Assembly (NCBI GenBank): GCA_025355165.1
Contig: JANYAD010000006.1
Span: 1-42,859, forward strand
Length of the DNA: 42,859 nt
Origin: Gammaproteobacteria bacterium
GTDB lineage: Bacteria > Pseudomonadota > Gammaproteobacteria > Steroidobacterales > Steroidobacteraceae
Reading direction: 5' to 3'
Within the stretch, counting starts at the first letter, position 1; each line of letters begins with the position of its first letter. This document shows positions 2,517 through 32,187 of the stretch, piece by piece. The position numbers and the translations under genes were made by a program. Under the pieces are notes generated by a model. That model saw only the letters and a program-made list of their open reading frames with translations. It was not told where the DNA came from and did no database searches.

Positions 2517-2587
2517 GGACGGCCTTTGCTGTTCATTCTCGTGTTGCTTTCGCAGCTGCGGCACTAGCGGGTGCGAGGCGGGTCAGC

Positions 2588-3991
2588 CTAGGATCGAGTC
2601 TGGGTGCGGCGTCGCTCCAAAATGGTTACCATTCCGTTCTTGGGGCGCAATGTGATGCGGGTTTGCAGTTTGATCTCCTGCGGCTCCTTAAGGCGAAGGC
2701 GAAAGCGCTGTCCGAGAACCGCGAGGATCAAGGTCGCCTCGGTTAAGGCAAGCGTCGCGCCGATGCAGACTCGAGGTCCCCCGCCGAAGGGCAGATAAGA
2801 AAAACGAGGACGCTTTTCGCTCGCTTCCTTGGTGAATCGAGTGGGGTCGAAGCGTTCCGGATTGTCCCAAAGACGGCGATGGCGATGCAGTATCCAGGGC
2901 GAAATCAACAGCTGCTGCCCCGGCATGACCTTGAAACCGCAGACTTCATCGGCTGCCCTAGCCTGCCGAATGGACATACCCGGTGCCGGAGGAAACAGGC
3001 GCATGGCTTCTTCGATGATCATTCGCGCGTAACTTAAATTTGCCAAGTCCTCCACCGTGGGATCCCTGCCGCCGAGCACCGCCTCGAGTTCTTGATGCAG
3101 CTTCGCCTCTTCGGCGGGATGCTGCGAAAGCAAATACCACACCCAGGTCATGGTCACAGCGGTAGTCTCATGGCCCGCCATAAAAATGGTGATCACCTCG
3201 TCGCGTACTTCGGTAGCGTTCAATCCCACGCCATTGTCAGGATCCTTCGCGACGATCAACCGGGTAAGAAAATCCTGCGGAGCTTCTTCACGAATTTTTT
3301 CGCGCTCATTGATCAGCCGATAGATGGCGGTATCCATGCCGCTGAAGTGGGCACGTATGGCACTTACCGTGCGCTTGATTCGCCACGGACCGAGCAGCGG
3401 CAAAATGTCCAGCAGGCCGAAATCCATCGATGTTTGTGCAAACTCGAGCGCCTCGTGTGCGCATGCGGCTAATTCCTCCGCATCCGAGGAAAACATCGTC
3501 CGGCAGATAATTTTCAGAGTCAGCGCGTTCATTTCCGCGGCGATGTCAACTTCGGAAAATTCAGGCTGGGCATCCCAGCGCCGCGCAAAGGCAACCGTGG
3601 CATCCACCATCGCCGGTGCATACGATTCTACGGTGCGTATGCCGAATGAAGGTGCCATCACTCTGCGATGGGTCCGCCACTTAGCGAAAGGTGCACTTAG
3701 GAGGCCTTCGCCGAACATGGCAGAAAAGAATTCGATCTCCAGGTCATTTTTTGGATAGTTGGCAACGTTATCTAACAGTACTCGACGCACGCCTTCCGGA
3801 TCATTGACCATGAGGACCTTCCCGAGCGGCGATTTCGATAGGTAGAATGGCTGCTCATAGGCCTCTAAAGGGATAATTTCAAACGGGTTCTCGCTGGACG
3901 CACGAATGGTCTTAAGAAAAGAGGCGGGTTTCAGCGGCGGAGGCGAGAGTCCGGCCGGTGTTTTGGCGGCGTAAATGCCCGGGGTAGTCAA
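2588..3991 (-). CDS. Cytochrome P450
   Basis: This is a heme-thiolate monooxygenase of 467 residues, full length for the family. The I-helix oxygen-activation motif AGHETT is at residues 272-277, the K-helix ExxR (EAMR) at 328-331, and the heme loop FGGGPRVCIG at 402-411 with Cys409 as the axial ligand. There is no N-terminal membrane anchor, so it should be soluble and cytoplasmic, as is usual in bacteria. The start is a TTG preceded by AAGGA about ten bases upstream; no better ATG is in frame. It converges on the amidase with a 71-base gap. No ferredoxin or ferredoxin reductase is encoded nearby, so its redox partner must be elsewhere. The substrate cannot be inferred. Confidence 0.95.
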   Translation of the reverse strand: MTTPGIYAAKTPAGLSPPPLKPASFLKTIRASSENPFEIIPLEAYEQPFYLSKSPLGKVLMVNDPEGVRRVLLDNVANYPKNDLEIEFFSAMFGEGLLSAPFAKWRTHRRVMAPSFGIRTVESYAPAMVDATVAFARRWDAQPEFSEVDIAAEMNALTLKIICRTMFSSDAEELAACAHEALEFAQTSMDFGLLDILPLLGPWRIKRTVSAIRAHFSGMDTAIYRLINEREKIREEAPQDFLTRLIVAKDPDNGVGLNATEVRDEVITIFMAGHETTAVTMTWVWYLLSQHPAEEAKLHQELEAVLGGRDPTVEDLANLSYARMIIEEAMRLFPPAPGMSIRQARAADEVCGFKVMPGQQLLISPWILHRHRRLWDNPERFDPTRFTKEASEKRPRFSYLPFGGGPRVCIGATLALTEATLILAVLGQRFRLRLKEPQEIKLQTRITLRPKNGMVTILERRRTQTRS

Positions 3992-4529
3992 GGCACGTTT
4001 CCTTCTTGCGAGTCGCAGCCGCCCATTGCCTTAATCAAGGCCGGTCAAACGCATTTGTATCTGACCGAAAGCGTAATGTGCTCAACCGTCGCGTGTTCGC
4101 GCGCCAACTTCAATAGTCGATCACGCTCGCGAAGACGCATGTCAAGTATGGTCATCGTACGCGCAGCGCAATTCCATTGAATCGCTGCTCGCGATTCGGC
4201 GCTTGAGTTCTGTCCGCGCAAACGAGTCCCAATTGTGGCATTTACGCGAGTTGCGGATCACGGCAACAAAAATAGTTTCCATCCAAGTCCTTCCGAACGT
4301 GGCGCGGCACCACGACTAGGTACTAAAGACCTTCAATGAGTCCGCGGTGGCGAATTATCCCACGAAATGGACGCCCCGGACTCAGCCGGGGCCACCGAAC
4401 TATGCGGCGACTTTGCTCGGAGGCGCCGGACTTGCGGGCGTGCGCGGCGAAGTCGAACCGCCCAGAGCCGTACGGCTGTTGGGGGGTGTATGGGCCGTGC
4501 AAGCATCTGAGTTCGCTGGTATCCGATGA
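3992..4529. other. Long intergenic stretch, no confident gene
   Basis: This stretch of about 540 bases lies between the P450 and phosphoesterase genes. The only candidate is a minus-strand frame open from about 4257 down to a stop at 4045-4047. It has an internal ATG at 4155 that would give 36 residues beginning MTILDMRLRERDRLL, with a helical, charged middle. It has no well-spaced ribosome binding site. Short plus-strand frames at 4336-4686 overlap the phosphoesterase gene and look like shadows. I see no terminator or repeat. Confidence 0.4.
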
Positions 4530-5540
4530 TCACTTTGGAATAATCGAAGGCACAGCAAGACGCGGCGAAGCCGCGAAATCGAAGCAGTCAAACAGATCCC
4601 CGGCCGGATCGCCGATGTCCAGCGCCGGGGTCTTCCACGCCGTCAGACCGAATAGTCGTATACAGAATTTCACCACGCTCGCGTGAGAATAGAACTGATG
4701 AATGATCTGTTGCTTAGAGTAAGGGCTCACGATGAGGCACGGGACTCGAGGCCCAAAGCGAAATTGGGATCCTTGATAGCCCGCAGGACCCTTCCCGGTC
4801 CACTGTGATTGATTGGGCGAAGCCACGTGATCGTACCAGCCCCCCCAATCATCCCAGGTAATGATAATGGCAGTGCTGGCCCAGAGCGAACTGTTCGCTA
4901 CATTGAGCACGCGCTGCGCAGTCCACTGTGCTCCCTGACGAACGGTCTGGCTGCCGGGGTGTTCGCTGTCGCCAAACGGCGCATACAGCCAGCTGACGTC
5001 GGGCAAAAATCCTTTCGCGACGTCGCTATCGAACTGAGAACTGGGAACATTCCACGAATTGCCTTGCAGTGCCTTTATGTGATTGAAGTAGGATGAGTTG
5101 GGCTCCGCGTAGTTGCGCCAAGTATGGCCCGCCATGGCGAGGGTCTGCGGAAGACTCGGGATATCGAAAGGCGGTTGCGGCTGATAGTTGCGTCCGTGGC
5201 TGCTGTTGTCAATCACAGGGGAATCCGCTGCGATAAGGAAAAGATGATTGGGCTCGGACTGGCTTGCAACATCCGTGAAATAGTTATCGCATAGGGTGTA
5301 CTGTTGCGCAAAGGCCCAGTAGCCGGGAATGTCCGCCACTGTGTACTGCATCTTCGCCGAACCGGTGATTCCGCTGGCGCCATTGTTCTTAAGCCAGGTG
5401 TCGTGACCGTGCCCCTGATCCGGGTGCGGATCGATGGCGTGAGGGAGGCTCACTCCCGCCACGCCGGGAAAAGCACCAAAGTAATTGTCGAAAGTATGAT
5501 TCTCTTTGGTGATGATGACCACGTGAGCAATGGGAAACAT
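4530..5540 (-). CDS. Phosphoesterase family protein (PF04185; phospholipase C / acid phosphatase-like)
   Basis: This is an alkaline-phosphatase-superfamily phosphoesterase related to bacterial phospholipase C and acid phosphatase AcpA. The N-terminus HVVIITKENHTFDNYFG holds the family metal-binding and nucleophile region (EN.TFDNYFG). Later motifs are SEPNHLFLIAADSP, ITWDDWGGWYDHV (metal ligands) and FRFGPRVPCLIVSPYSK followed by YSHASVVKFC, in the usual family order. The ATG at 5540 is preceded by AAGGAG at good spacing; a GTG six bases upstream is less likely. Most relatives carry a signal peptide, but here the core starts within about five residues. The protein is therefore either cytoplasmic or has lost its leader. 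The substrate, probably a phosphodiester or phosphomonoester, is inferred only. Confidence 0.88.
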   Translation of the reverse strand: MFPIAHVVIITKENHTFDNYFGAFPGVAGVSLPHAIDPHPDQGHGHDTWLKNNGASGITGSAKMQYTVADIPGYWAFAQQYTLCDNYFTDVASQSEPNHLFLIAADSPVIDNSSHGRNYQPQPPFDIPSLPQTLAMAGHTWRNYAEPNSSYFNHIKALQGNSWNVPSSQFDSDVAKGFLPDVSWLYAPFGDSEHPGSQTVRQGAQWTAQRVLNVANSSLWASTAIIITWDDWGGWYDHVASPNQSQWTGKGPAGYQGSQFRFGPRVPCLIVSPYSKQQIIHQFYSHASVVKFCIRLFGLTAWKTPALDIGDPAGDLFDCFDFAASPRLAVPSIIPK

Positions 5541-5793
5541 AAACACTCCTTAAAAAGTAGAATTGGTAATGCCTCTGGCTTCAAGCGAGTCGGCAGCGTT
5601 CCGGATGCGTCTCAGCGTGGGTACGATAGTGCAAAGAGTATTGCAGGCATCGGTTGCAAAATGAGCGCGACGCGATTCACCGTCACGTGAACTCGCCGTA
5701 GCTTCGACGCGGTCAATAAGAAGCATTTCTGTTCATGGAGTCGGCCTGTTAGGCTACCCTTCGCCACCCCCTATAGTCTCAGGAAGTCGCGCT

Positions 5794-7272
5794 ATGTTCC
5801 GTGCAGTCCGAGTCGCCCGCCAAATCGGCCTGACAATCTTGACTGGCATACTGGTGCTTCCGGCGCACGCTCAGAAGCCGGCTGCGACGGCCAGTGCCGC
5901 GAGTGTAGCCGCTGACCCGGACGTTCTTGGTGCTGAACGGCTATTTTCGGCATGGATCGAGGAACAAATCGCCTATCGAGGGCTACCAGGCGTTGCGGTT
6001 GGCGTGGTAAGCAACCAGGATCTTATCTGGTCGAAAGGCTTCGGTTTCGCGGATCTCAAAAGAAAAATTCCGATGACTGCGACCACCCAGTTTCGCATGG
6101 CGTCCAACAGCAAGTTGTTTACCGCCATTGCCATCATGCAGTTGCGGGAAGAGGGCAAGCTGGGACTCGATGACCCGGTGGTGAAGTACCTGCCCTGGTT
6201 CAAGTCAAAGCCTGCCGGCAACGACGATGGTCCCGTCACGATCGAGCAGTTGCTATCACACAGTTCCGGCTTGCAGCGCGAAGCGGGGGACCACTGGGTA
6301 ACATACAAATTTCCGAGCACCGATGAGATTCAGCGGCTCTATGCAGACCGAGAAGCGGCGTTTGCGCCGGCGGTACGGTGGAAGTACTCCAACCTGGCTT
6401 ATGCCGTTGCCGGGCAAGTTGTCGAGAAAGTGAGCGGCGAGCCATGGTCTGTCTACGTTGAGCGCAACATATTCAAGCCGCTGGGCATGGAGGCATCGAG
6501 TGTAGATCGGGAAATTCCCGGACTGGCGGTACCGTACGGACGTCGAATGCCAGATGGCACGCGCGAGGTGCTGCCTTTCGTGGATTCGCGCGGTATGGCC
6601 GCAGCGACGGGCCTTACCTCGAATGTCGAGGACATGGCGAAGTTTATATCGGCACAGTTCCGCCGGGGCCCGCGCGGCGGAGCGCAAATCGTCAGCGGCG
6701 GATCGTGGCGCGAGATGCTGCGCGTGCGCTCATTGGACGAGAATTGGAGCGCCGGAACAGGGCTCGGATTTGACGTGAATCGCATAAAGGACAGGACCTA
6801 CATTGGGCATGGGGGCGGCTATCCCGGAAATACGACTCAGACGCTCATTCAGTTAGACGATAGAGTCGGAGTGATCGTGCTTACGAACACCGGTGACTCA
6901 AATCCGGGCGACATCGCGCTGCAATTGATGCGTACCGTGGGCCAAGCCACCGCGAAGGCGGCGAACGCTGCGGGCGCAAAGCCGAGCGTCGAATGGGATC
7001 CCGCGTGGGAGCGCTTTGCGGGGCTTTATCGTGGTCGGTCTTCGGACCAACAGGTCGTGCTACTCAACAAGAGGTTGGTCATCATCAATCCGAACGCACC
7101 AAACTTGGATGATCCCGTTACGCTTGAACCACTTGGCGGCGGCAAGTTTCGCTTCGTCGCGCCAACAGGCGGCGGGGTGGTGGGCGAGGTCGTGCGATTC
7201 GTCGAGGAGAGCGGCCGGCCGATGCGCATGTACACGGGGGACAGTTGGATTGATCGGGTGCGCACGCAGTGA
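5794..7272 (+). CDS. Serine hydrolase, class C beta-lactamase / penicillin-binding-protein-like
   Basis: This belongs to the beta-lactamase class C / D-alanyl-D-alanine carboxypeptidase / esterase superfamily. An N-terminal signal peptide ends at about AHA (residue 26), so the protein is periplasmic or secreted. Catalytic motifs are SNSK at 104-107 (SxxK nucleophile and base), YSN at 198-200, and HGGG at 339-342 in place of KTG. The HxG form is common in esterases of this fold. The C-terminal 100 residues form an extra beta domain seen in many such hydrolases. The ATG is preceded by AGGAAG about eight bases upstream. It is divergent from the phosphoesterase gene. Whether it acts on peptides, beta-lactams or esters cannot be decided from sequence. 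Confidence 0.9.
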   Translation: MFRAVRVARQIGLTILTGILVLPAHAQKPAATASAASVAADPDVLGAERLFSAWIEEQIAYRGLPGVAVGVVSNQDLIWSKGFGFADLKRKIPMTATTQFRMASNSKLFTAIAIMQLREEGKLGLDDPVVKYLPWFKSKPAGNDDGPVTIEQLLSHSSGLQREAGDHWVTYKFPSTDEIQRLYADREAAFAPAVRWKYSNLAYAVAGQVVEKVSGEPWSVYVERNIFKPLGMEASSVDREIPGLAVPYGRRMPDGTREVLPFVDSRGMAAATGLTSNVEDMAKFISAQFRRGPRGGAQIVSGGSWREMLRVRSLDENWSAGTGLGFDVNRIKDRTYIGHGGGYPGNTTQTLIQLDDRVGVIVLTNTGDSNPGDIALQLMRTVGQATAKAANAAGAKPSVEWDPAWERFAGLYRGRSSDQQVVLLNKRLVIINPNAPNLDDPVTLEPLGGGKFRFVAPTGGGVVGEVVRFVEESGRPMRMYTGDSWIDRVRTQ

Positions 7273-7284
7273 ATTGATTCCGGG

Positions 7285-7437
7285 CTAGTCGTGCGCGCCC
7301 GGGTGCCTCAGATGCGCAACTTGTAGTTCAGAGGACGGCGCCGGTCCGGCGAGCTCGGCATATATGCCAAGAGCGCATACGGCTATCGTCGCCGCGGTTA
7401 CCGCAATCGCTATGGTCAATCGTGATGGAACACGCAT
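7285..7437 (-). CDS. Small putative single-span membrane or secreted peptide (50 aa)
   Basis: I translated this frame by hand. It begins MRVPSRLTIAIAVTAATIAV, followed by CALGIYAELAGPAP and a polar tail ending HPGAHD. Two early arginines precede a hydrophobic run of about 19 residues, the pattern of a signal anchor or signal peptide. The ATG at 7435-7437 has GGAG six bases upstream (cggagtgaatt), which supports translation. It lies just after the serine hydrolase on the opposite strand. No family was recognised. It may equally be the signal-peptide remnant of a decayed gene, since a decayed gene lies just upstream of it on the same strand. Confidence 0.4.
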   Translation of the reverse strand: MRVPSRLTIAIAVTAATIAVCALGIYAELAGPAPSSELQVAHLRHPGAHD

Positions 7438-7543
7438 AATTCACTCCGTATGACAGGATTAGTAAACGCCCACTAAGAAGGACGTAAAGCAGTGATGAAA
7501 TCGGACATGAAGGCGGCAGCGATCGCCGTTTATTGTTACCGAT

Positions 7544-7804
7544 TCAACGCCCCGGGCTCGCTCGGATCTCCTTTCGGTGCCTAGGCTCCAAACGATCGCC
7601 GTCCCGCAGAACAAACGCGACGTTTCTGATGGCAGATATATCTTCGGTTGGATCACCGTCTGGCAATACAAACCAGCGTCGCGCTCGATTGACCCCCGAT
7701 CGGCCATCACTCGCGCATAGGTAGCGCCGTTCCAAGTCCCGATGCGCAATACTTCATTTGCAGGATTCCGCCCCTTTTACGTACAACTCGACTTGCCGTT
7801 CAAA
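7544..7804 (-). pseudogene. Amidohydrolase C-terminal remnant (two frameshifts)
   Basis: Three consecutive minus-strand segments in different frames line up with the C-terminus of imidazolonepropionase-like amidohydrolases. FERQVELYVKGA is at about 7769-7804, NPANEVLRIGTWNGATYARV (continuing MADRGSIER) at 7681-7767, and WFVLPDGDPTEDISAIRNV (continuing AFVLRDGDRLEP) at 7547-7675. In intact enzymes these pieces are contiguous (...ELYVKAGM.P.EVLR.AT.NGA...GSIEPGK.ADLVVLDGDP..DIS...). A stop codon lies in frame just before the second piece, and the GSIEPGKxAD loop is partly lost at the second shift. The metal-binding barrel is absent because the neighbouring MFS gene ends at 7847. The remnant should be non-functional. 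Confidence 0.75.
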
Positions 7805-7846
7805 TTTAAAAGCCGCGAAATTCGGTTTCGCCGTGCCGGAGGTGCG

Positions 7847-9304
7847 CTAGCCTCGTTCTTGACAGCGAGCGGATGATTCGACTTTGAGCCGAGGCGATGG
7901 CTTTTTTGTGATGAATGGCAGGATAACGGACATCAAGAGCACGATGGCGGTGATCGGCAGCATGCCCGTGAATGAGCCGGTCAGGTCCTTTGCTCGAGCA
8001 GCTAGGATCGGGCCTATTAAGCCCGCCAGCCCCCACGCCGATAAGATAAGGCCGTAGTTCAATCCCATGAATCGCGTACCGAAATACTGCGCGTTGTAGG
8101 ATGGCATCGTTCCAAATCCGCCGCCGCAGCACAGAAGGATCACGGAGAATCCGGCGAGGGCGAAATTGAATTCATGAACGTTGCTGAGCAAAAACAGCGT
8201 CACCGCCTGAAAGAAGAACATCGCGGCAAAGCTGTGATTGCAGCCAATACGATCCGAGATCGTGCCCCACAAGAGGCGACCGATCGCATTAAACACGCTG
8301 ACAAGCCCGAACAGCGGTGCAACCGCGGCAGCCGACACCTTGGTCAGCTCCGCGAGAATAGACACCGAGTTTGAAATGATTGTGATGCCGCCGATTACAT
8401 TGACAAACAGCTGCATCCACAGCAGATAAAACTGTGGCATTGCAACAACTTGCGAAGGGGAGTAACCGTTGTTAGCCGAAGGCGATGCCCCGGCATGGCC
8501 CGAGATGCTGTAACCGCGCGGAGGATTGCGAAATAGCGAAGCGGCTAGCAGACCGACGATGAGAAAAACGACTCCAGACATGACAAATACCCGCATCACT
8601 GCACCAATGTCCGCCGCGGTCGGTGTTTGCGCCGCCGATAACATCGCAGAATCAAACGGAGCGCGCGCTGCTCTGGCCGCAGCTTGCGCAGCGATAAAGC
8701 CGCCCGCGTGCAAAGCTGCTTGATGAAATCCAGGCAACCGCGGAATCAATTGGTTGTAGGCAAACGCCCCGAGACCGAAAGCACCGGCGACGAGACCGCC
8801 GGCGAGTCCTTTCTTGTCTGGGAACCACTTGGTGACCATTGCGAGAGGGGTGATATAGGCCATTCCCGCGCCAATACCCCCGATAAGTCCATAGCTTGCG
8901 TACAACCAAGGCGCACCGAAGATCGGTGTTCCGAGACCAGCGAGCACATTGCCGCCTCCCCATAGCGCCATCCCCACGATCGCAACATGACGTGGGCCGG
9001 CCTTGTCCTGCCAGAAGCCGCCAACGACAGCGCCAACGGCGGCCAGGGAAAAATTGGCGATGGAATACGTCCAAGTCGTAACCGTTAAGTCCCATCGATA
9101 GGCCACCCGTAAAGGTTGCGTAAAGATTGCCCAGGAATAGACCGTGCCGATCATCATCATGACAACGGCCCCAGCGATGGCTATTGTCCATCGGTTGCGC
9201 GTCAGTTCCCAAGCGATGGCTCGGGTGCTGCGGTGTGCCTCGATTGGTAACTGCACGTAAATTCCATAAGTCGTGTTTGCTATATACCTACGGACGCAGT
9301 GCAC
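7847..9304 (-). CDS. MFS transporter, OFA (oxalate/formate antiporter-like) family
   Basis: This is an inner-membrane carrier of 485 residues with about twelve hydrophobic segments. The N-terminal half has GTVYSWAIFTQPL in the first helix, then GGFWQDKAGPRHVA as the loop 2-3 signature and GIGAGMAYITPLAMVTKWFP, all typical of OFA-family transporters that move small carboxylates. The second half has LWGTISDRIGCNH, the repeated cytoplasmic loop motif. The long open frame starts at a GTG at 9304, but the first about 30 residues are atypical and a GTG at 9256 is an alternative; the start is uncertain. The amidohydrolase remnant directly downstream suggests a former catabolic pair. The transported substrate is not determinable. 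Confidence 0.88.
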   Translation of the reverse strand: MHCVRRYIANTTYGIYVQLPIEAHRSTRAIAWELTRNRWTIAIAGAVVMMMIGTVYSWAIFTQPLRVAYRWDLTVTTWTYSIANFSLAAVGAVVGGFWQDKAGPRHVAIVGMALWGGGNVLAGLGTPIFGAPWLYASYGLIGGIGAGMAYITPLAMVTKWFPDKKGLAGGLVAGAFGLGAFAYNQLIPRLPGFHQAALHAGGFIAAQAAARAARAPFDSAMLSAAQTPTAADIGAVMRVFVMSGVVFLIVGLLAASLFRNPPRGYSISGHAGASPSANNGYSPSQVVAMPQFYLLWMQLFVNVIGGITIISNSVSILAELTKVSAAAVAPLFGLVSVFNAIGRLLWGTISDRIGCNHSFAAMFFFQAVTLFLLSNVHEFNFALAGFSVILLCCGGGFGTMPSYNAQYFGTRFMGLNYGLILSAWGLAGLIGPILAARAKDLTGSFTGMLPITAIVLLMSVILPFITKKPSPRLKVESSARCQERG

Positions 9305-9383
9305 CTGCGAAAAGCGACACCCCGAACGGATATGTTTTGGCAGGGCGAAGGACCCGCGCTCCCTTGAGGCGGGCTTCGATTAA

Positions 9384-10262
9384 TTATGGGCGCAGGACAA
9401 CGATGCAGATGCCGGCGAAGGCCAGAACTGCGCCCGGAATACGCGCTGCAATCGGCCATTCGCCCAGCAGAAAGCCGGCGAACAAAGCAGCGAAAAGCGG
9501 AGTCAAGAGCGTAAGGCTGGTGGTTACTGTGGCGGGTAGTCGCCTCGACGCTTCACTGTACGCTGCGGTGGGAACGGCGGTCGAGAAGGCGCCCAACAAG
9601 ACCAAAACCCACCAGTCATGAGTGGAAGTCCTAGATAGGGGTTCGACTCCGCGGATCGCCAGCAAAACCATACTGGCAATTGCGCCCATGAGCGAGGCGC
9701 GCGCCGCCACGGCGACGCCATCCGGAGCATTCCCCGCGCTCGCGGCCGCGCGAAGCCGGGTCACGTAAAAAGCGGAGACAGCGGCCGCCGCCAGCGCCAA
9801 TGCATCGCCGATGACAGAAGTGGATGAATATCGACTACCGGGTATCACGAAGCCGGCCAGCCCCGCCATGGCCATCACCACTCCAAAGAGTCGAACACGC
9901 GATACAGGCCGGCCCACGATTCCCTCGAAGCAAACCGCGATTAAGGGCGAGGATCCCACCAATAGAGTGACTTCGATCACCGGTGCACGCGTGAACGCCT
10001 CGGTGGCGAATACGTAGTAGGCAGCCATTGCCGCCACGGCCAGCCAGGGCGCCGCCGGCCGCTGCGTTCCATTGCGCCGTAGCATTGCGACGGCCGCGAG
10101 CACCGATGCCGACACCACCAGTCTGCAGACGGTAATCATTCCCGGGGAGGCTGTTGTGATGAGATGAACGAAAGTTCCCGTCATCCCCCACGACAGCGCG
10201 GCGATCAGACCCGCCGTTAAGCCTGCGCGATCCAGCGTCGCATCGCGTACTTCTTCTGCCAT
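9384..10262 (-). CDS. EamA/DMT-family transporter
   Basis: This is a drug/metabolite-transporter-superfamily inner-membrane protein of 292 residues, with about ten predicted helices arranged as two EamA repeats of about 140 residues. The first repeat begins AGLIAALSWGMTGTFVHL and contains AMAAYYVFATEAFTRAPVIE; the second ends TSLTLLTPLFAALFAGFLLGE and PGAVLAFAGICIVV. Such proteins export amino acids, nucleotides or other metabolites. The ATG at 10262 has a GGTGG-like site upstream. It follows the OFA carrier on the same strand with an 80-base gap, so cotranscription is possible. The substrate is unknown. Confidence 0.9.
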   Translation of the reverse strand: MAEEVRDATLDRAGLTAGLIAALSWGMTGTFVHLITTASPGMITVCRLVVSASVLAAVAMLRRNGTQRPAAPWLAVAAMAAYYVFATEAFTRAPVIEVTLLVGSSPLIAVCFEGIVGRPVSRVRLFGVVMAMAGLAGFVIPGSRYSSTSVIGDALALAAAAVSAFYVTRLRAAASAGNAPDGVAVAARASLMGAIASMVLLAIRGVEPLSRTSTHDWWVLVLLGAFSTAVPTAAYSEASRRLPATVTTSLTLLTPLFAALFAGFLLGEWPIAARIPGAVLAFAGICIVVLRP

Positions 10263-17838: not shown

Positions 17839-18545
17839 AAGAATTCATATTCGAATCGGGCTAGCCATGTCTGCCGTGGTGCGTCGGCATTAAGGCCGAC
17901 CACCACGCCGACGCGGTATTCTAAGTTTGATTTGGTGCCGGCGAGGTGCCATTCTCCGGAAACGATGGGGCCTGCCTGATACGAATTGTCGGCATGACGG
18001 CCGTAGAACTCCACACCGGGACGGAATAACTGGGAGACCGCATAGGTACCGGAGTACGTGTAGCGGAATCCGTAGTTTGCACTGGCACCCGAGCCGACCT
18101 GCTTTTCCCAAATTAGATTCACAATATGCGCAAGACGGCCCATCGTTTTTTCAATAAGCGCGCCAAGTTCGATCGTATCGTGGCCTCCCGCAACCGTCGA
18201 ATGAGCATATTCGGCCAGCAGTCCACCATCCGCCCAGTACTCGCCGGGCGCCGTTAGCTGGAAAATGTTCTCGAATTCGTAGCCAATCAGCCTGCCGCGG
18301 GAACCGGGGTCTTTCTGATATTCGGCTATATACACTTCGGGCTTCCACCAGCTGCTGACCGCATGCGCAATGGCTACCTCGGCAGCCGCACCGCCCGCAT
18401 TCCGGCGAGGGTCCACATCGTGATAACCGCGTAGCTCTATTTCGTTCTGCGAAGCGATGACATAGGGAGAGTAAATGTTGTAGTCATCGGCGCGAGCCAT
18501 TCCGACGCAGCACAAGGCGACTATCCCAAAAACGGCGGCTCTCAT
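17835..18545 (-). CDS. Predicted periplasmic or outer-membrane protein of iron operon
   Basis: The protein has a clean signal peptide (MRAAVFGIVALCCVGMARA). The mature chain is rich in alternating polar and hydrophobic strands with many Tyr, Trp and Gly, and ends in WLARFEYEFF, a terminal aromatic typical of outer-membrane beta-barrels. About 217 mature residues could form an eight- to ten-strand barrel. Its ATG overlaps the FTR1 stop as ATGA, so it is translationally coupled to the permease and lies under the same Fur-type promoter. A role as outer-membrane partner of the iron system is inference from position; the family is not recognised. Confidence 0.65.
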   Translation of the reverse strand: MRAAVFGIVALCCVGMARADDYNIYSPYVIASQNEIELRGYHDVDPRRNAGGAAAEVAIAHAVSSWWKPEVYIAEYQKDPGSRGRLIGYEFENIFQLTAPGEYWADGGLLAEYAHSTVAGGHDTIELGALIEKTMGRLAHIVNLIWEKQVGSGASANYGFRYTYSGTYAVSQLFRPGVEFYGRHADNSYQAGPIVSGEWHLAGTKSNLEYRVGVVVGLNADAPRQTWLARFEYEFF

Positions 18546-19402
18546 GGCTGAGCTTTTGGCAGCGTATCCCCCGCAGCGGACGAGGAACGCGAGGTGGGCA
18601 TCACATTTCGTTGCTGCCAGAGCATGCCGGCTATTAAAAGCGCCAAGGTCGTGAAGTAGAAGGCGAGCTGGATTCCAGCGGGTGCGGACTTATATCCGAT
18701 CAGCACGCTAAGAGTCTTGCCCAGAGCCGAGTCATCCGATAAAAGGCGCGCGGTGTCCCATATTTGGCTGCCTAATGCGGGCAAAAGATCGCTCTGGACG
18801 AGATAGCCTGCGGCCGTGGAGGCGAGCCCCGCGGCCAGTAATACCAACATGATGTTCGTCACGGTGAAGAAGTAATTAATGGGTATATGCAGCAGACCGA
18901 GATATAAAGCGAATCCCAACGCCGCTCCGCCGCAGATTCCAAGAGCGATTCCGCCTGCCATTTGAACGGCGCTGATGCCGCTGGCCGACATCCCGAAGAG
19001 GAAAAGCACCACCTCCGATCCCTCGCGCAGCACCGCGAGTGCCACCACGGTTAACAAGAGATTGAGCGAGCTCGATCCCTGCTTCACGGCACTCCCGACA
19101 CTGCTCATGTGCTTGGCTAGCTCCCGGCCATGGGAGGACATCCAGATCACGTGCCAGCCAATCATGAGTACTGCGAGCAGCAAAACAGCTGCGTTGAAAA
19201 TGTCCTGGCCCGCACCGCTTGCCAGCTGTGCAATAAAATCCGCTCCTAACGCGATCAACAGAGCACCCGCAACTCCGAGCCCGATACCGCCCACTACCCT
19301 AGCTGCCCGGCCGGGCACACCTCGAGTAGCGGCGCAAATAATCGAGATGATCAAGGCGGCCTCGAGAACCTCACGAAAAACAAGTAACGCAACGGCAGGC
19401 AC
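18542..19402 (-). CDS. FTR1-family iron permease
   Basis: This is an inner-membrane iron permease of the FTR1/EfeU family. It has about seven hydrophobic segments and the paired RExxE iron-translocation motifs: REVLE at residues 10-14 and REGSE at 126-130. The first motif has Val where REGLE is usual. Length 286 matches the family. It follows the cupredoxin-like gene by three bases and overlaps the predicted outer-membrane gene. With the Fur-type site upstream of the cluster, a role in iron uptake is well supported. Whether iron enters as ferrous or ferric is not shown by the sequence. Confidence 0.92.
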   Translation of the reverse strand: MPAVALLVFREVLEAALIISIICAATRGVPGRAARVVGGIGLGVAGALLIALGADFIAQLASGAGQDIFNAAVLLLAVLMIGWHVIWMSSHGRELAKHMSSVGSAVKQGSSSLNLLLTVVALAVLREGSEVVLFLFGMSASGISAVQMAGGIALGICGGAALGFALYLGLLHIPINYFFTVTNIMLVLLAAGLASTAAGYLVQSDLLPALGSQIWDTARLLSDDSALGKTLSVLIGYKSAPAGIQLAFYFTTLALLIAGMLWQQRNVMPTSRSSSAAGDTLPKAQP

Positions 19403-19405
19403 GGC

Positions 19406-19738
19406 TTACTCTACAATCAATCGGCCTTGCGCCGTGTCTCGATGGAAGTCGCCAAAGAACCCGTAGGTACCGGCACGCAGGGGGCCTATAAAAACAACGA
19501 TGCTTCGATTGGGCAGAACTAGACTCTCGCGGTTGAAATCAGTGCTCTCGAACTCCTCAGGCGTCGTATCTCCATTGGTGATATGCAGCTTGACCTTGGT
19601 GCCGGCAGGGATCTTAAGTTCACTTGGTTGATAGACGTGATTCTTAATCAGCAACGAAAATTCGGGCATGTCCGCAGCGACCGCAACCGATACAAAAGTT
19701 GCGCCAATCGTCGCCGCGACTACACTGAAAAGCTTCAT
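19406..19738 (-). CDS. Periplasmic cupredoxin-like protein (EfeO cupredoxin-domain type)
   Basis: A signal peptide (MKLFSVVAATIGATFVSVAVA) precedes a single cupredoxin domain of about 88 residues. The pattern TPEEFESTDFNRE followed by GTYGFFGDFHRDTAQG matches the stand-alone cupredoxin partners of FTR1 permeases and the N-terminal domain of EfeO. There is no Cys, so it lacks a type 1 copper site; in relatives the domain is thought to bind iron or copper differently. The ATG has GGAG five bases upstream. It is the first gene of the Fur-type operon and probably delivers or oxidises iron for the permease in the periplasm. Confidence 0.85.
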   Translation of the reverse strand: MKLFSVVAATIGATFVSVAVAADMPEFSLLIKNHVYQPSELKIPAGTKVKLHITNGDTTPEEFESTDFNRESLVLPNRSIVVFIGPLRAGTYGFFGDFHRDTAQGRLIVE

Positions 19739-27263: not shown

Positions 27264-27556
27264 TTCCGTTCCTTAGCAGTGACAACAGTTACATAACACG
27301 CCACGCGGTCGGAATTGCGCAAATCAAGCGACAATTTACTGCTTCACCGCGACTAGCTCAGCTTGACATTTCCTGACGCGAGGCGGCGTTGCAATCGGGA
27401 ATCAGTTGCTCAATACTCTGGCGAATATCACATAAGCCGATTCACGTCATAACTAATCAATCGACGTGCATGCAATGAACGCTTAATACCGCTTATCTCA
27501 GACCTGGCCGGGACCAACTCGGCGGGTACGGCCACAGGTACAACAGGGGTTGCCAC

Positions 27557-29188
27557 ATGAAGCGAAATTACCGGCATTCTTTCCAAATGCAGCGGCGCCG
27601 CAGCGCGCCAATGCTGGGCATAGCGTTGTTGGTCGCAGCCGGGACTGTCTGGGCCGCAAACGATCTCGATACGCCCGCCGCACGCGGCACCGTGCAAAAA
27701 AGCGGTGCTGATACCTATAACATGGAGTGGCTGGGTCACGACGACCTGCAAGGCCGCACGGTGTATCAAACCACGGTGCACACCCAAGGAAATCGGGTGA
27801 TCGCCTATGTGGGACACTTCAACGGAAAGATGCTCAACCCGATGACGGGCGTGACGGAAACCAATGGTACTTCCATCGTCGATGTCACGGACCCTCGCGA
27901 TCCGATTTACCTCAAGCATCTGGTGGCCAGTCATGGCGGTGCGCGCATGGCGAAGCTGTGCGAGGGCAGTGAGCTGCCGCATGGCATTCACGGCAAGACA
28001 TATCTGCTGAGAGAGAACGGCGCCGTATCCCATGAAGTGTGGGATGTCACTGATCCGGCCAATCCGGCACTGGTCTCCACGCCGGTAACGGGGGTGGATG
28101 TGACGCACCGCAATTGGTGGGACTGCAAAAGCGGTATCGCTTACATCGTCGCGGGCGCTACCAAGTCGGGCGACGGCGCCTTCGACGGCTGGAACGGCAA
28201 CAGCAGCCCGGCGCAGCACCTCAAGATCTACGATCTCAGCAATCCAGCCAGTCCTAAATACATCATGGACTTCGGTTATCCGGGTCAGAACCCGGGCTCA
28301 ACGTTTGTCATGCCGGGAACCGAGGCCACCACCAAAACCGTACCGCCGGGCGTCCACGGTCCGATCGTCGTGAGTAGCTTCAAGGGCAAGGCGGTAGACC
28401 GGCTTTACATGCCGTATGGCGTGGGATCGGATGGCATCGTCCAAATCCTTGATTTGACGAAGGTTCTGCCACCGCCCTACGGCACCGGCAGCTACGCCAA
28501 TGTAAGCAAGCCCACCGACGCCGAGCTTCTGCAAGGTCAGATAGGCGTCATCTACATGCCCGGAGTCGAAGGCGGACACTCCGCCATACCCATCTACGGC
28601 ATTCCGTTGAAGCAGTACAGGAATTTCACGGACAACAACGTACGCGACGTGCTCGCGGTGAGTTCCGAGGAGACCGACAATCGCTGCACGGGATCGCCGC
28701 ATTTGATGTATTTGCTCGACATCACCAGCAAAATTGGTCAGGGAGGCAGTACCAGCGCGGAACAGCACCCCTGGCCGATGTCTACCGTGACGGTGGATGA
28801 CTTCTCCGCGCGGCCTAACTTCTGTTCCCGCGGCACTCGTTTCGGCGTTCACTCGCCTGCGGAGAACTTCGACGACCCCTCCTATGGCCGCCTGCTCACG
28901 AGCGCTTGGTTCGATGCGGGTATACGGGTCACGGACATCCGCGATCCCTACCATCCTCGGGAAGTAGCGCACTTCATCGCGCCGATCACCAAGTTCACGC
29001 AGCCCAGCACCGCCGTGATCAACGGCGTCAGCTACACCTCGCTGGACGTTTCTTGCGATAACACCGACGTCGATAACCGCGGTCTGCGCTATTGCGGCGA
29101 TCGGGTGGGCGGCGGACTCGATATCGCACGATTGACTGACGAAGCGGCGGAAATCGCCCGCGACGATAGCGGCGCTCACGAGGATTGA
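27557..29188 (+). CDS. Secreted LVIVD-repeat beta-propeller protein
   Basis: The product has an N-terminal signal (APMLGIALLVAAGTVWA) preceded by a basic stretch. The mature part shows repeated blade motifs: IVDVTDPRDP (107-116), VWDVTDPANP (161-170), IYDLSNPASP (224-233) and VTDIRDPYHP (near 470). This is the hallmark of LVIVD repeat propellers, usually cell-surface or periplasmic. Segments such as VASHGGARMAKLCEGSELPHG and ACGxDN-like CTGSPHLMYLL carry His and Cys that could bind metal. The ATG has AGGGG upstream. Its stop overlaps the start of the SBP-cupredoxin gene, so the two are probably made together. The catalytic role, if any, is unknown. Confidence 0.8.
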   Translation: MKRNYRHSFQMQRRRSAPMLGIALLVAAGTVWAANDLDTPAARGTVQKSGADTYNMEWLGHDDLQGRTVYQTTVHTQGNRVIAYVGHFNGKMLNPMTGVTETNGTSIVDVTDPRDPIYLKHLVASHGGARMAKLCEGSELPHGIHGKTYLLRENGAVSHEVWDVTDPANPALVSTPVTGVDVTHRNWWDCKSGIAYIVAGATKSGDGAFDGWNGNSSPAQHLKIYDLSNPASPKYIMDFGYPGQNPGSTFVMPGTEATTKTVPPGVHGPIVVSSFKGKAVDRLYMPYGVGSDGIVQILDLTKVLPPPYGTGSYANVSKPTDAELLQGQIGVIYMPGVEGGHSAIPIYGIPLKQYRNFTDNNVRDVLAVSSEETDNRCTGSPHLMYLLDITSKIGQGGSTSAEQHPWPMSTVTVDDFSARPNFCSRGTRFGVHSPAENFDDPSYGRLLTSAWFDAGIRVTDIRDPYHPREVAHFIAPITKFTQPSTAVINGVSYTSLDVSCDNTDVDNRGLRYCGDRVGGGLDIARLTDEAAEIARDDSGAHED

Positions 29189-30714
29189 AGCGGCCGGTTA
29201 TTTTATCCAGCAGGCGCCGCGCCCGTTGCGCGGGCGCCGCTCTGGTTTTCGTTGCGCTTAACGTTTTGGCCGCTGAAGACCTCACGGTAATCTCCTTCGG
29301 CCGTGCCGACCGCGCAGCGCTGGCCGCCGCCTACCTTGAGCCTTTCACGAAGTCCACGGGCATCCGCATAAATTCCTTGTCCTATGACGGACAAATTACC
29401 GAACTCACGCAAATGGTCCGAGCCGGGGCTCCGGTGTGGGATGTGATGCAGGTTGAGTCGCGAACGCTAGAACAGGGGTGCCGGCAAGGGCTGTTCGAAA
29501 GGCTCGATCCTGAGCGCGTCCCGTTGCTTAAGGATTTGATCCCCGGCGCGGTGTCCGATTGCGGCGTTGGGATTTTTGCTTGGGCGCAAGCCCTGGTCTA
29601 TTCGGATCGGCTCCGGGATGCGCCCCGTTCATGGGCCGATTTCTGGGATATCCGCCGCTATCCAGGCAAACGGGGGCTGCGGCATAGTGCCAAATACACG
29701 CTGGAGATCGCGCTGCTGGCCGACGGCGTTGCGCCGAAAGATGTGTACCGCACCCTCGCCACGGATGCGGGGGTGAAGCGCGCTTTCCAAAAGCTCGATC
29801 AGATTCGCAAGGACACGGTTTGGTGGCAGGCAGCGGCCCAACCGGCCGCCCTCATGGCAGCAGGATGGGTCAGCATGAGCTCGGCCTACACCCTGTGGTT
29901 CGATCCAGAGCAGGAACACAACCGCCATGCCCGGATCGTCTGGCGCCAAAGCCTTTACGACATCGACAGTTGGGCCATCACGAGCGGATCACCGAAGCGG
30001 GATGACGCCTACCGCTTCATTGCCTTTGCAAGTGCGCCGGAGCGGCAAAAGGTGCTATCCGAACAGCTTAACTACGGACCGACCAATCGACGTGCACTGG
30101 AGTTATTGCCCGCGCGTCTCGGCGATGCCCTGCCGAGCTCTCCGGCACACCTCGAGAACGCGCTGCGCATCGATACCGCCTTCTGGATCGAACATGGAGA
30201 TGCGCTCGAGCGGCGCTTCAATTCCTGGGCTCCCGCCGTCTGCCGTCAGCAGGAGGACGAGGATGACGATGACTACTTTGAACAGCCGGTGTGTCAGGAT
30301 GCTCAGGGAAACATGCGGGTCAGCCGAGGTCCGACCGACGCGAGCGGCATAGGCCAGCCCGGCAATCCGGCAGAGGTATCTCGGACTGTCAATGTGACGA
30401 TGAGCGATGCCATGCGCTTCACGCCCGAACGTATCGAGGCAAAGAAGGGCGAGACCGTGCGCTTCGTGCTGCAGAACAACGGACGATTGCGCCACGAAAT
30501 GGTATTGGGCGAGCCCGATGCTTTGCGCCGGCACGCAGCCATGATGCAAATGATGCCTGATATGCAGCACAGCGGTCCCAACATGGCGAGTCTAGCCGCC
30601 GGCGAGCGCGGCGAACTGATCTGGAGATTCACGCGTAGCGGCGCCGTCGCATTTGCCTGCCTGCAAAGTGGGCACCTCGAGGCCGGCATGAAGGGGTCAA
30701 TTGCCGTGCGGTGA
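29185..30714 (+). CDS. PotD-like periplasmic binding protein fused to a copper-site cupredoxin
   Basis: After a signal peptide ending near VLAA (residue 30), residues 31-355 form a type 2 periplasmic binding protein of the PotD/iron-binding kind (LTVISFGRADRAALAAAYLE, WDVMQVESRTLEQG, GIFAWAQALVYSDRL, SWADFWDIRRYPGKRGL). An acidic linker (EDEDDDD) leads to a cupredoxin at about 402-509. That domain has a complete type 1 copper ligand set, H437, C492, H497 and M502, in RLRHEMV and FACLQSGHLEAGM, plus a Met/His-rich loop at 446-467. The cupredoxin resembles copper-resistance cupredoxins. The start is a TTG overlapping the propeller stop. No permease or ATPase gene is near. A copper-linked periplasmic role is inferred. 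Confidence 0.85.
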   Translation: MKRPVILSSRRRARCAGAALVFVALNVLAAEDLTVISFGRADRAALAAAYLEPFTKSTGIRINSLSYDGQITELTQMVRAGAPVWDVMQVESRTLEQGCRQGLFERLDPERVPLLKDLIPGAVSDCGVGIFAWAQALVYSDRLRDAPRSWADFWDIRRYPGKRGLRHSAKYTLEIALLADGVAPKDVYRTLATDAGVKRAFQKLDQIRKDTVWWQAAAQPAALMAAGWVSMSSAYTLWFDPEQEHNRHARIVWRQSLYDIDSWAITSGSPKRDDAYRFIAFASAPERQKVLSEQLNYGPTNRRALELLPARLGDALPSSPAHLENALRIDTAFWIEHGDALERRFNSWAPAVCRQQEDEDDDDYFEQPVCQDAQGNMRVSRGPTDASGIGQPGNPAEVSRTVNVTMSDAMRFTPERIEAKKGETVRFVLQNNGRLRHEMVLGEPDALRRHAAMMQMMPDMQHSGPNMASLAAGERGELIWRFTRSGAVAFACLQSGHLEAGMKGSIAVR

Positions 30715-30889
30715 GCGAACGCGTCGGTAGCGCACCGGGAATTGCGCTGCTTTGCCGCAAAAGAAGATCGAGAAATGTCATCTCGGCAGACGCCCGGGGA
30801 AAGAAAATCGCGCTGTTTCTAGTAGAATTGAAGGCGTCAAGCACAGTTAGGAATGTGTATCGGACCTCAACATTTGCTGCCAAGAAAAA

Positions 30890-31216
30890 ATGCATAATTT
30901 ATTTGAAGGTCTGCAACGCGTCGAGAATCAATCCTCGAACGATAACGTTATCGAGCGAGTAGGGCTGTTGCCCGACGGAAGCCTCTACATCAAGCACGGC
31001 AGCCGTATCGAAGGTCATGGCCAATTCATGCTGAGTATCCATGTGCCCGCGACCCACGTGGCGCACGTGAAGGGGGTATTGTCGCTCGGACGCCCCGCGC
31101 TCTTGACCGATACCGAATTCCTAGATCTGATCACGGCGCGCTTCCCATCCGGAAGTCACATCATCGATTGGTTGCAGGAAGAAGGCGTGCCATTCGTGGC
31201 GCGCGGCGTCGCCTGA
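30890..31216 (+). CDS. Hypothetical protein (108 aa)
   Basis: This is a soluble protein without signal or membrane segments. It looks like a compact alpha/beta domain: VIERVGLLPDGSLYIKHGS, then GQFMLSIHVPATHVAHVKGV, and SGSHIIDWLQEEGVPF near the end. It follows the SBP-cupredoxin gene by 175 bases on the same strand and ends before a hairpin. Only a weak AAGA-type ribosome binding site precedes the ATG. The family is not recognised. Confidence 0.55.
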   Translation: MHNLFEGLQRVENQSSNDNVIERVGLLPDGSLYIKHGSRIEGHGQFMLSIHVPATHVAHVKGVLSLGRPALLTDTEFLDLITARFPSGSHIIDWLQEEGVPFVARGVA

Positions 31217-31233
31217 TCCATCCGCTTAAGTGA

Positions 31234-31264
31234 GCCAAAGCACATAGCGTGCCGGCGCTTTGGC
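31234..31264. terminator. Hairpin between convergent genes
   Basis: Eight-base arms GCCAAAGC (31234-31241) and GCTTTGGC (31257-31264) enclose a GC-rich loop of 15 bases. The hairpin lies 15 bases after the 108-residue gene and 12 bases from the end of the BrkB gene. There is no clear U tract, so the terminator role is likely but not certain. Confidence 0.45.
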
Positions 31265-31275
31265 AGTGCTCAGGC

Positions 31276-32187
31276 CTATGTTGGCTGCAGTACCATGGAT
31301 TTCGGGGGGACTTGAGCGCGCCTAGAGCCGCGTGCGTACGCGAATGCGCAGGTGAACTCGGCGCCGAATAGAAATATTTGCGCCGAATAATAAATCCAAA
31401 GCAGCAGCACAATCAGTGAGCCGGCTGCGCCATAAGCCGAGCTGAAAGCGCTTTTCCCCAAATATATTCCAATCAGCGCTTTTCCCAGCGTAAAGAGCAC
31501 TGTGGTGAAAAAGGCTCCGACCCAAACATCTTGCCACGCGATACGTTCCCGCGGCGTGTATTTGAATATGAGCGCAAACAAGACGACCGTCATTGCAAAA
31601 CTCACAGTGTGGTTGAGCCAGGCCACCCAATAAAGCATGGGCGGGAGGAACCCGCCGAGCCAATGGTTGACTGCACCGAGCGCCGCGCTCGCCAATAAAG
31701 AAACCAAGAGCAAGAACCCAATGCCTAAAACCAGACCTAGGGACAGCATTCTTGCGCGTACAAAGCGCCACCATGCGACTTTGTGGGCGACTTCGGGGGT
31801 TTTCCAAATTGTCTCCAGTGCCTGTTGCAGCTCCTGGAACACACTCATCGCGCCGACGATGAGCGCGATGATGCCGATGAATGCCGCGACGCCTTTCTGA
31901 TTGCTGTAATGCGCACTTAGCACCAGATCTCGTACCGCCGCCGCGCCGCCTTCGCCCAACAATGCCGGCAGTTCCGAAAGCACTCGCTGTTGCGCCACCT
32001 CAGCGCCAAACACGTACCCGACGATGGCCAGAGCAATAATCAATACCGGCGCAATGGAAAATAACGTGTAGTAGGCAAGCGCGGCACCCATGCTCGAGGC
32101 GCGGTCGGCAACCCATGCCGCCGCCGCTTTACGGATTATTGACCATAGGTCGCGGCCGGCCAGAAGGCGTTCCAGTGTTCGATTCAT
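31276..32187 (-). CDS. YihY/BrkB-family inner-membrane protein
   Basis: This 303-residue membrane protein has about six hydrophobic segments. Family motifs include DRASSMGAALAYYTLFSIAP near the N-terminus, LQQALETIWKTPE in the first loop, and YGAAGSLIVLLLWIYYSAQI with LFGAEFTCAFA near the C-terminus. Formerly annotated as ribonuclease BN, the family is now viewed as membrane proteins of uncertain transport role. The ATG is clear. It is followed upstream by ypfJ on the same strand with a 65-base gap. Confidence 0.94.
   Translation of the reverse strand: MNRTLERLLAGRDLWSIIRKAAAAWVADRASSMGAALAYYTLFSIAPVLIIALAIVGYVFGAEVAQQRVLSELPALLGEGGAAAVRDLVLSAHYSNQKGVAAFIGIIALIVGAMSVFQELQQALETIWKTPEVAHKVAWWRFVRARMLSLGLVLGIGFLLLVSLLASAALGAVNHWLGGFLPPMLYWVAWLNHTVSFAMTVVLFALIFKYTPRERIAWQDVWVGAFFTTVLFTLGKALIGIYLGKSAFSSAYGAAGSLIVLLLWIYYSAQIFLFGAEFTCAFAYARGSRRAQVPPKSMVLQPT

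Follow-up and report, generated by a model that had tools for sequence, protein, structure and literature searches.

Why a periplasmic solute-binding protein (SBP) should be joined to a cupredoxin, and whether such a protein takes up a solute, handles copper or does both, is the question raised by one gene in the window, by which is meant the whole stretch of 42,859 nucleotides that was analysed. The gene joins two known kinds of protein, and their union was not found elsewhere; the fusion is regarded as real and apparently unique, in a single draft genome.

One reading frame across two domains

The fusion gene lies at 29185-30714 on the forward strand, with a TTG start, a TGA stop and 509 codons free of internal stops, in agreement with the earlier note, which had described a single open frame joining a binding domain, an acidic linker and a cupredoxin. 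All of its parts are on the same strand. Residues 1-30 (29185-29274) are predicted, from the sequence, to form a signal peptide, through which the protein would be exported, and the AlphaFold model contains a low-confidence helix at residues 13-31. The hydrophobic stretch of this peptide is preceded by the motif SSRRRAR (residues 8-14, 29206-29226), which we take to be faintly Tat-like. The solute-binding domain follows at residues 31-349 (29275-30231), as delimited by PF13416, the ends of free relatives, the AlphaFold model and fold matches; the domain had been recognised before, but its end had been set at residue 355 and is better placed at about residue 349, where the free relatives stop. 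A linker (residues 350-388, 30232-30348), acidic and mostly of low pLDDT, carries the run EDEDDDD (357-363) between C353 and C370 and has no counterpart in the aligned free SBPs or CopI-type proteins. The remainder, residues 389-509 (30349-30711), is a CopI-type cupredoxin according to Pfam and NCBIfam matches and to the alignment with stand-alone relatives.

Both halves were found above cut-off in the Pfam search that the earlier note had proposed: SBP_bac_8 (PF13416) at residues 49-305 (E 2.2e-33, 116.7 bits against a gathering score of 27) and Copper-bind (PF00127) at residues 406-508 (E 3.2e-06, 27.9 bits, cut-off 21.2). That both domain families should match in one frame by accident, with E-values this low, is not credible. 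The AlphaFold model, proposed in the same place, was confident for the binding half (pLDDT mostly above 90) but not for the copper half, whose pLDDT stayed below 50 in the fusion model and averaged 45.6 in a single-sequence model; having no confident model, the cupredoxin was left out of the fold search.

The fusion is known from a single assembly of 271 contigs, as would be expected if it were an artefact of a draft genome, but the join is in frame, lies inside a 42.9-kb contig and includes a novel linker. Moreover, GC and GC3 are even over the join (GC3 0.65-0.77 along the fusion gene), the junction DNA (30200-30420, 221 bases) is present in a single copy in the genome, and no direct repeats of at least 16 nt were found within 27400-31300. 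Given this even composition, the single-copy junction and the lack of a repeat, an assembly artefact is very unlikely.

A copper half of the CopI type

The alignment confirmed the four ligands H437, C492, H497 and M502 (30493-30690, from first to last) at the positions previously assigned to them. H437 corresponds to a histidine in 12/12 aligned stand-alone relatives, and the cysteine, histidine and methionine ligands are present in each of the 11 whose sequence extends to them, the twelfth being cut by a contig end. Identity to these 12 proteins ranges from 35 to 61%, with six at 54-61%; the nearest (L120, 61%) and another of them (L121) come from one genome. In its own genome the cupredoxin query matched one place only, with no second match.

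The NCBIfam models for CopI were also matched (NF051440, 8.3e-28; NF047895, 9.6e-20), with both scores, 71.1 and 97.4 bits, below the curated cut-offs of 200 and 280. Two stand-alone relatives likewise fall below these cut-offs, at 113.2/114.0 and 95.5/105.7 bits. CopI, a periplasmic green cupredoxin of Rubrivivax gelatinosus, Vibrio cholerae and Pseudomonas aeruginosa, has in common with the fusion the H-C-H-M site and a His/Met segment, which in the fusion occupies residues 450-467 (H450 to M467, 30532-30585). Where CopI has its N-terminal His-rich part, the fusion instead has the SBP and the acidic linker; this region, a variable CopI trait, is absent from the fusion, and no histidine occurs between residues 337 and 437. 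As set out in the available part of the CopI report, CopI is a single-domain protein, often with a His-rich N-terminus, whose internal His/Met segment is conserved and described as crucial for resistance; in the model presented there, this segment binds Cu(I) and hands it on to the cupredoxin centre, where it is oxidised (PMC13308877).

Elsewhere in the window, at 18542-19738 on the reverse strand, an FTR1/EfeU-type iron permease gene (PF03239) adjoins a small cupredoxin (PF13473, 4.8e-27), and the two likely form an iron uptake pair. Other cupredoxins that serve iron uptake, FtrB and those of the EfeO type, resemble the fusion in placing a cupredoxin in a periplasmic transport context, but they are not known to have an SBP_bac_8 partner and belong to a different cupredoxin subfamily.

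A GABA-type binding fold with a changed pocket sequence

By sequence, the nearest solved relatives of the binding half are 4i1d, 4eq7/4euo and the Pf622-based GABA sensors 9d57 and 6dgv; by fold, the closest to the model are 4i1d and 4eq7 (GABA receptor Atu4243), with a TM score of 0.87 by target length. Identity to the solved Atu4243 and Pf622 structures is 29-33%. The label PotD-like, previously given to this domain, thus holds broadly, in that the Pfam family and the fold are shared with the polyamine SBPs PotD and PotF, but among solved structures it is GABA-type SBPs that come closest. PotD and PotF are more distant (17-25% in the fold comparison), and the genome that carries the fusion encodes a separate PotF-like protein with permeases of its own.

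Eight free SBP relatives are 46-52% identical to the binding half and end at residue 348-349. Judging from translations, the relative at 52% (L002) adjoins an ABC ATPase and two permeases, another (L003) an ABC ATPase and one permease, and a third (L042) an ABC ATPase, its contig stopping past the SBP. In P. aeruginosa PA7 the order is histidine kinase, SBP, ABC ATPase, SBP, permease and permease-sized ORF, the two SBPs being 63% identical to each other. The available part of the literature on the agtSR-pa0602-agtABCD region describes SBPs which bind GABA and 5-aminovalerate (PMC11113362). We infer that the PA7 locus is the agt region and that the nearest characterised operon type of the binding half looks agt-like. 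The GABA/5-aminovalerate SBPs (PA0602, AgtB and PA4985 of P. aeruginosa; Atu4243; Pf622 of iGABASnFR) share with the fusion the fold and the pocket aspartate and tyrosine. They differ from it in having the pocket arginine, where the fusion has tryptophan, and invariant glycines, which in the fusion are replaced; moreover, the fusion lacks an ABC operon and bears a C-terminal cupredoxin.

The GABA site given for iGABASnFR2 (Pf622) in the accessible portion of its description consists of W9, T13, F100, Y102, W202, R205, D228 and Y264, with D228 hydrogen-bonding the GABA amine and R205 lining the site (PMC12999171). When mapped by sequence alignment, with an offset of 6 that is consistent with all eight letters, these residues correspond to F38, D42, F131, W133, Y235, W238, D261 and Y297 of the fusion. 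F100, D228 and Y264 of that set are thus unchanged, an aromatic residue is still found at 9, 102 and 202, and the full GABA/5-aminovalerate pocket, as far as this portion of the source defines it, is not present, R205 being W238 and T13 being D42.

The changes are concentrated in two short segments. In R40-A41-D42 (29302-29310, forward strand), R40 stands at an invariant glycine (Pf622 G11), which is found in 48/48 close relatives and in 94/94 of those having a residue there out of 100, and D42 at a position mostly occupied by N, Y or S (Pf622 T13). In T236-L237-W238 (29890-29898, forward strand), the family has N-G-R (Pf622 N203-G204-R205); position 238 is arginine in all 48 close relatives and in 95 of the 100 overall, and tryptophan in none. 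D261 (29965-29967) and Y297 (30073-30075), on the same strand and equivalent to Pf622 D228 and Y264, are retained, as is W263.

Conservation was assessed on 48 relatives of at least 38% identity, drawn from 100 SBPs after one match had been dropped for coverage, and a column was called near-invariant when at least 90% conserved. The fusion retains 65 of 75 such columns, and four of the ten lost are the pocket-segment changes G40R, N236T, G237L and R238W; the remaining losses are G217A and five mild changes, E101Q, K208R, L224M, I295L and N322H. Losses therefore affect 4/7 conserved columns in the pocket segments against 6/68 elsewhere (hypergeometric P 0.005, an after-the-fact value, the segments having been picked from the paper once the changes were known). 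In a leave-one-out comparison of the 48 close relatives the median loss was one column and the maximum 14, the close relative L124 having lost 14/79 with the pocket arginine still present. Since the number lost is not unusual, the argument rests on which columns changed. An earlier, smaller set (19 close relatives of 71) gave 54/67 columns kept, and of the 13 lost columns three were gaps at the termini. Taken at the level of sequence, the ligand contacts have changed, and the specificity probably with them. R40, which comes from the other lobe, could stand in for the lost arginine, and for this reason a change of contacts is claimed rather than a loss of all binding; with D261 and Y297 kept, the pocket may still bind something, even a GABA-like compound.

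Rarity, neighbours and possible roles

The earlier note knew of no described protein with this layout, and none has come to light: none of the collections searched yielded a fused relative, and no publication on an SBP-cupredoxin layout was found among the papers listed from the open-licence literature, as far as titles and the opening lines of abstracts tell. In genome contigs, 76 stretches matched the search pattern and 21 loci were confirmed, all of them with the binding half only; in IMG/VR viral contigs, 7 and 6 stretches matched and none was confirmed. In a tblastn search of the PLSDB plasmids with the protein as query, 1151 records matched, none of them covering 80% of it at a single locus. 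Five whole-genome searches, whose sets overlap and whose E-value limits differ, gave matches in 17/60 genomes of relatives, 17/217 of the family, 28/396 of the order, 50/369 of the class and 110/398 of the phylum, own genome included; the family search used a joined query which also matched the upstream protein. No fused relative is among the matches listed in these searches (60-398 genomes each): every non-own match listed covers the SBP, the cupredoxin or, in the family search, the upstream protein, and the listed SBP matches running past residue 355 cross stop codons, none reaching the copper ligands. One candidate from the genome contigs, L019, matched up to residue 383 and was rejected, its frame being closed by a stop codon where the SBP ends. 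Among 156 fetched non-own loci, several of them overlapping, 105 contained the SBP, 17 the cupredoxin and none both; 4 of 108 SBP matches had fewer than 600 bases downstream.

The gene directly upstream (27557-29188, forward strand) encodes a secreted-looking, choice-of-anchor-B-like protein of 543 residues, for which we assume the name LVIVD. This gene runs into the fusion gene, the sequence TTGA containing both the TGA stop of the one and the TTG start of the other. The protein reaches 25.6 bits with TIGR04312, far below the cut-off of 100, and no Pfam family matched it at 0.01. Homologs of 35-39% identity (38-44% in the family search) occur at four loci (L135-L138) in three genomes of the family, all lacking the fusion, and at eight other loci identity is about 23-26%. 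At one of the four (L136), the LVIVD-like gene (6978-9649) adjoins SCO1/SenC on the same strand. A general copper link of the upstream gene was considered and is not claimed, because SCO1 accompanies it at this locus only (1/12, with a cupredoxin at 0/12 and several of the contigs short); nor did the open-licence literature yield, by title, anything relevant on LVIVD and copper. A scan for promoters and terminators performed no better than on shuffled sequences. Downstream of the fusion, a near-perfect palindrome with overlapping arms of 17 nt (30934-30959) lies inside an ORF (30890-31216) that has no Pfam match.

No ABC genes were found by Pfam among the 22 other proteins of the window. The genome as a whole has 16 BPD_transp_1 matches; an initial view from 12 of these, that it lacks a Pot-type permease, was rejected when a direct search found a PotH-like gene on contig C243. 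This is the nearest to the type of permease that accompanies the SBP relatives (36% over residues 201-425 of 428), and a full-length permease of that type was not found in the genome, the strong match being confined to the C-terminal half. The PotH-like gene is grouped with a PotF-like SBP of its own, which scores 419.5 bits (E 1.1e-125) and falls short of the curated 636. The surrounding region (2519-8722 of locus L172) reads as a PotF-PotG-PotH-PotI-like putrescine importer, PotF and one permease having been profile-tested and the others read from translations; the genes beside it are presumably PuuA/PuuD-like.

With the copper half intact, the binding half altered and no dedicated transport partners found, the reading we prefer, at a probability of about one half, is that of a periplasmic CopI-type copper buffer or oxidase carrying an exapted SBP which is no longer used for uptake. 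The copper- or redox-coupled sensor or scavenger suggested in the earlier note is conjectural; what the evidence favours is copper handling by the CopI-type domain. This C-terminal domain would work in the way that has been proposed for CopI, its His/Met segment capturing Cu(I) and its H-C-H-M site holding or oxidising it. Its carrier would be a former amine or amino-acid SBP, with the fold kept and the ligand contacts changed, which suggests that it no longer serves GABA-type uptake. The most likely task of the SBP would be docking or scaffolding, in which the upstream protein translated along with it may take part; alternatively, the SBP may bind a different small molecule. Against this stand the occurrence of the fusion in one genome, the missed CopI cut-offs and the absent N-terminal His tail, and the copper half, once joined to a domain of 320 residues, might have another role.

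Alternatively, the SBP may gate the copper site by closing on a small molecule, which would alter how tightly the cupredoxin binds copper, its redox potential or the partner it selects. The specificity would then be altered, with the amine end of a ligand still held by D261, and the protein would be a natural analogue of binding-protein biosensors. The kept scaffold and the retained D261, W263 and Y297 favour such gating, and iGABASnFR2, in which a fluorescent domain is inserted in an SBP, shows, in the part of its description available, that closure can drive a joined domain (PMC12999171). However, the pocket arginine, which by inference faces the carboxylate side, and two invariant glycines are replaced, and the cupredoxin is attached at the C-terminus through a low-confidence linker rather than inserted; gating is thus unlikely, while heading the alternatives. 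A more elaborate form, a natural copper switch in which an SBP retuned to a new small molecule would exert allosteric control over the copper capture or electron transfer of the CopI domain, together with the co-translated, propeller-like partner, is harder still to credit.

Nearly on a level with simple gating, and also doubtful, is a recent neutral or decaying fusion, in which a horizontally acquired SBP was joined to copI when a stop codon and the CopI signal peptide were lost, leaving only the cupredoxin at work. It would account for the restriction to one genome and for both halves being closer to proteins outside the family than to any in the same genus: the SBP is 52% identical to L002, outside the family, against 41% for the best match within it, and the cupredoxin 61% to L120 against 37-38% in the genus. 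Decay sits poorly, though, with 509 open codons of steady GC3, with the scaffold columns kept and with an acidic linker that the aligned free proteins do not have. Improbable, and more so than the copper switch, is an uptake role, whereby the SBP would bring a copper complex or an amine to a distant permease while the cupredoxin supplies or oxidises copper. The BPD_transp_1 matches, a PotHI-like pair included, would offer candidate partners, but that pair has its own PotF-like SBP, the long permease of the relatives is strongly matched only over its C-terminal half, and the pocket is altered.

As the available part of the agt literature recounts, SBPs have been reused as sensors and docking modules (PMC11113362). 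CopI, for its part, was recently described as a component of the defence against copper in the periplasm. If the fusion is a lone, non-functional one, it matters little. If it works, the covalent link between an SBP and CopI would offer a simple system for testing whether small molecules steer periplasmic copper handling or whether partners dock to it. Because the pairing did not turn up in any of the other genomes examined, it may be a unique arrangement that ties copper handling to a small molecule or a partner.
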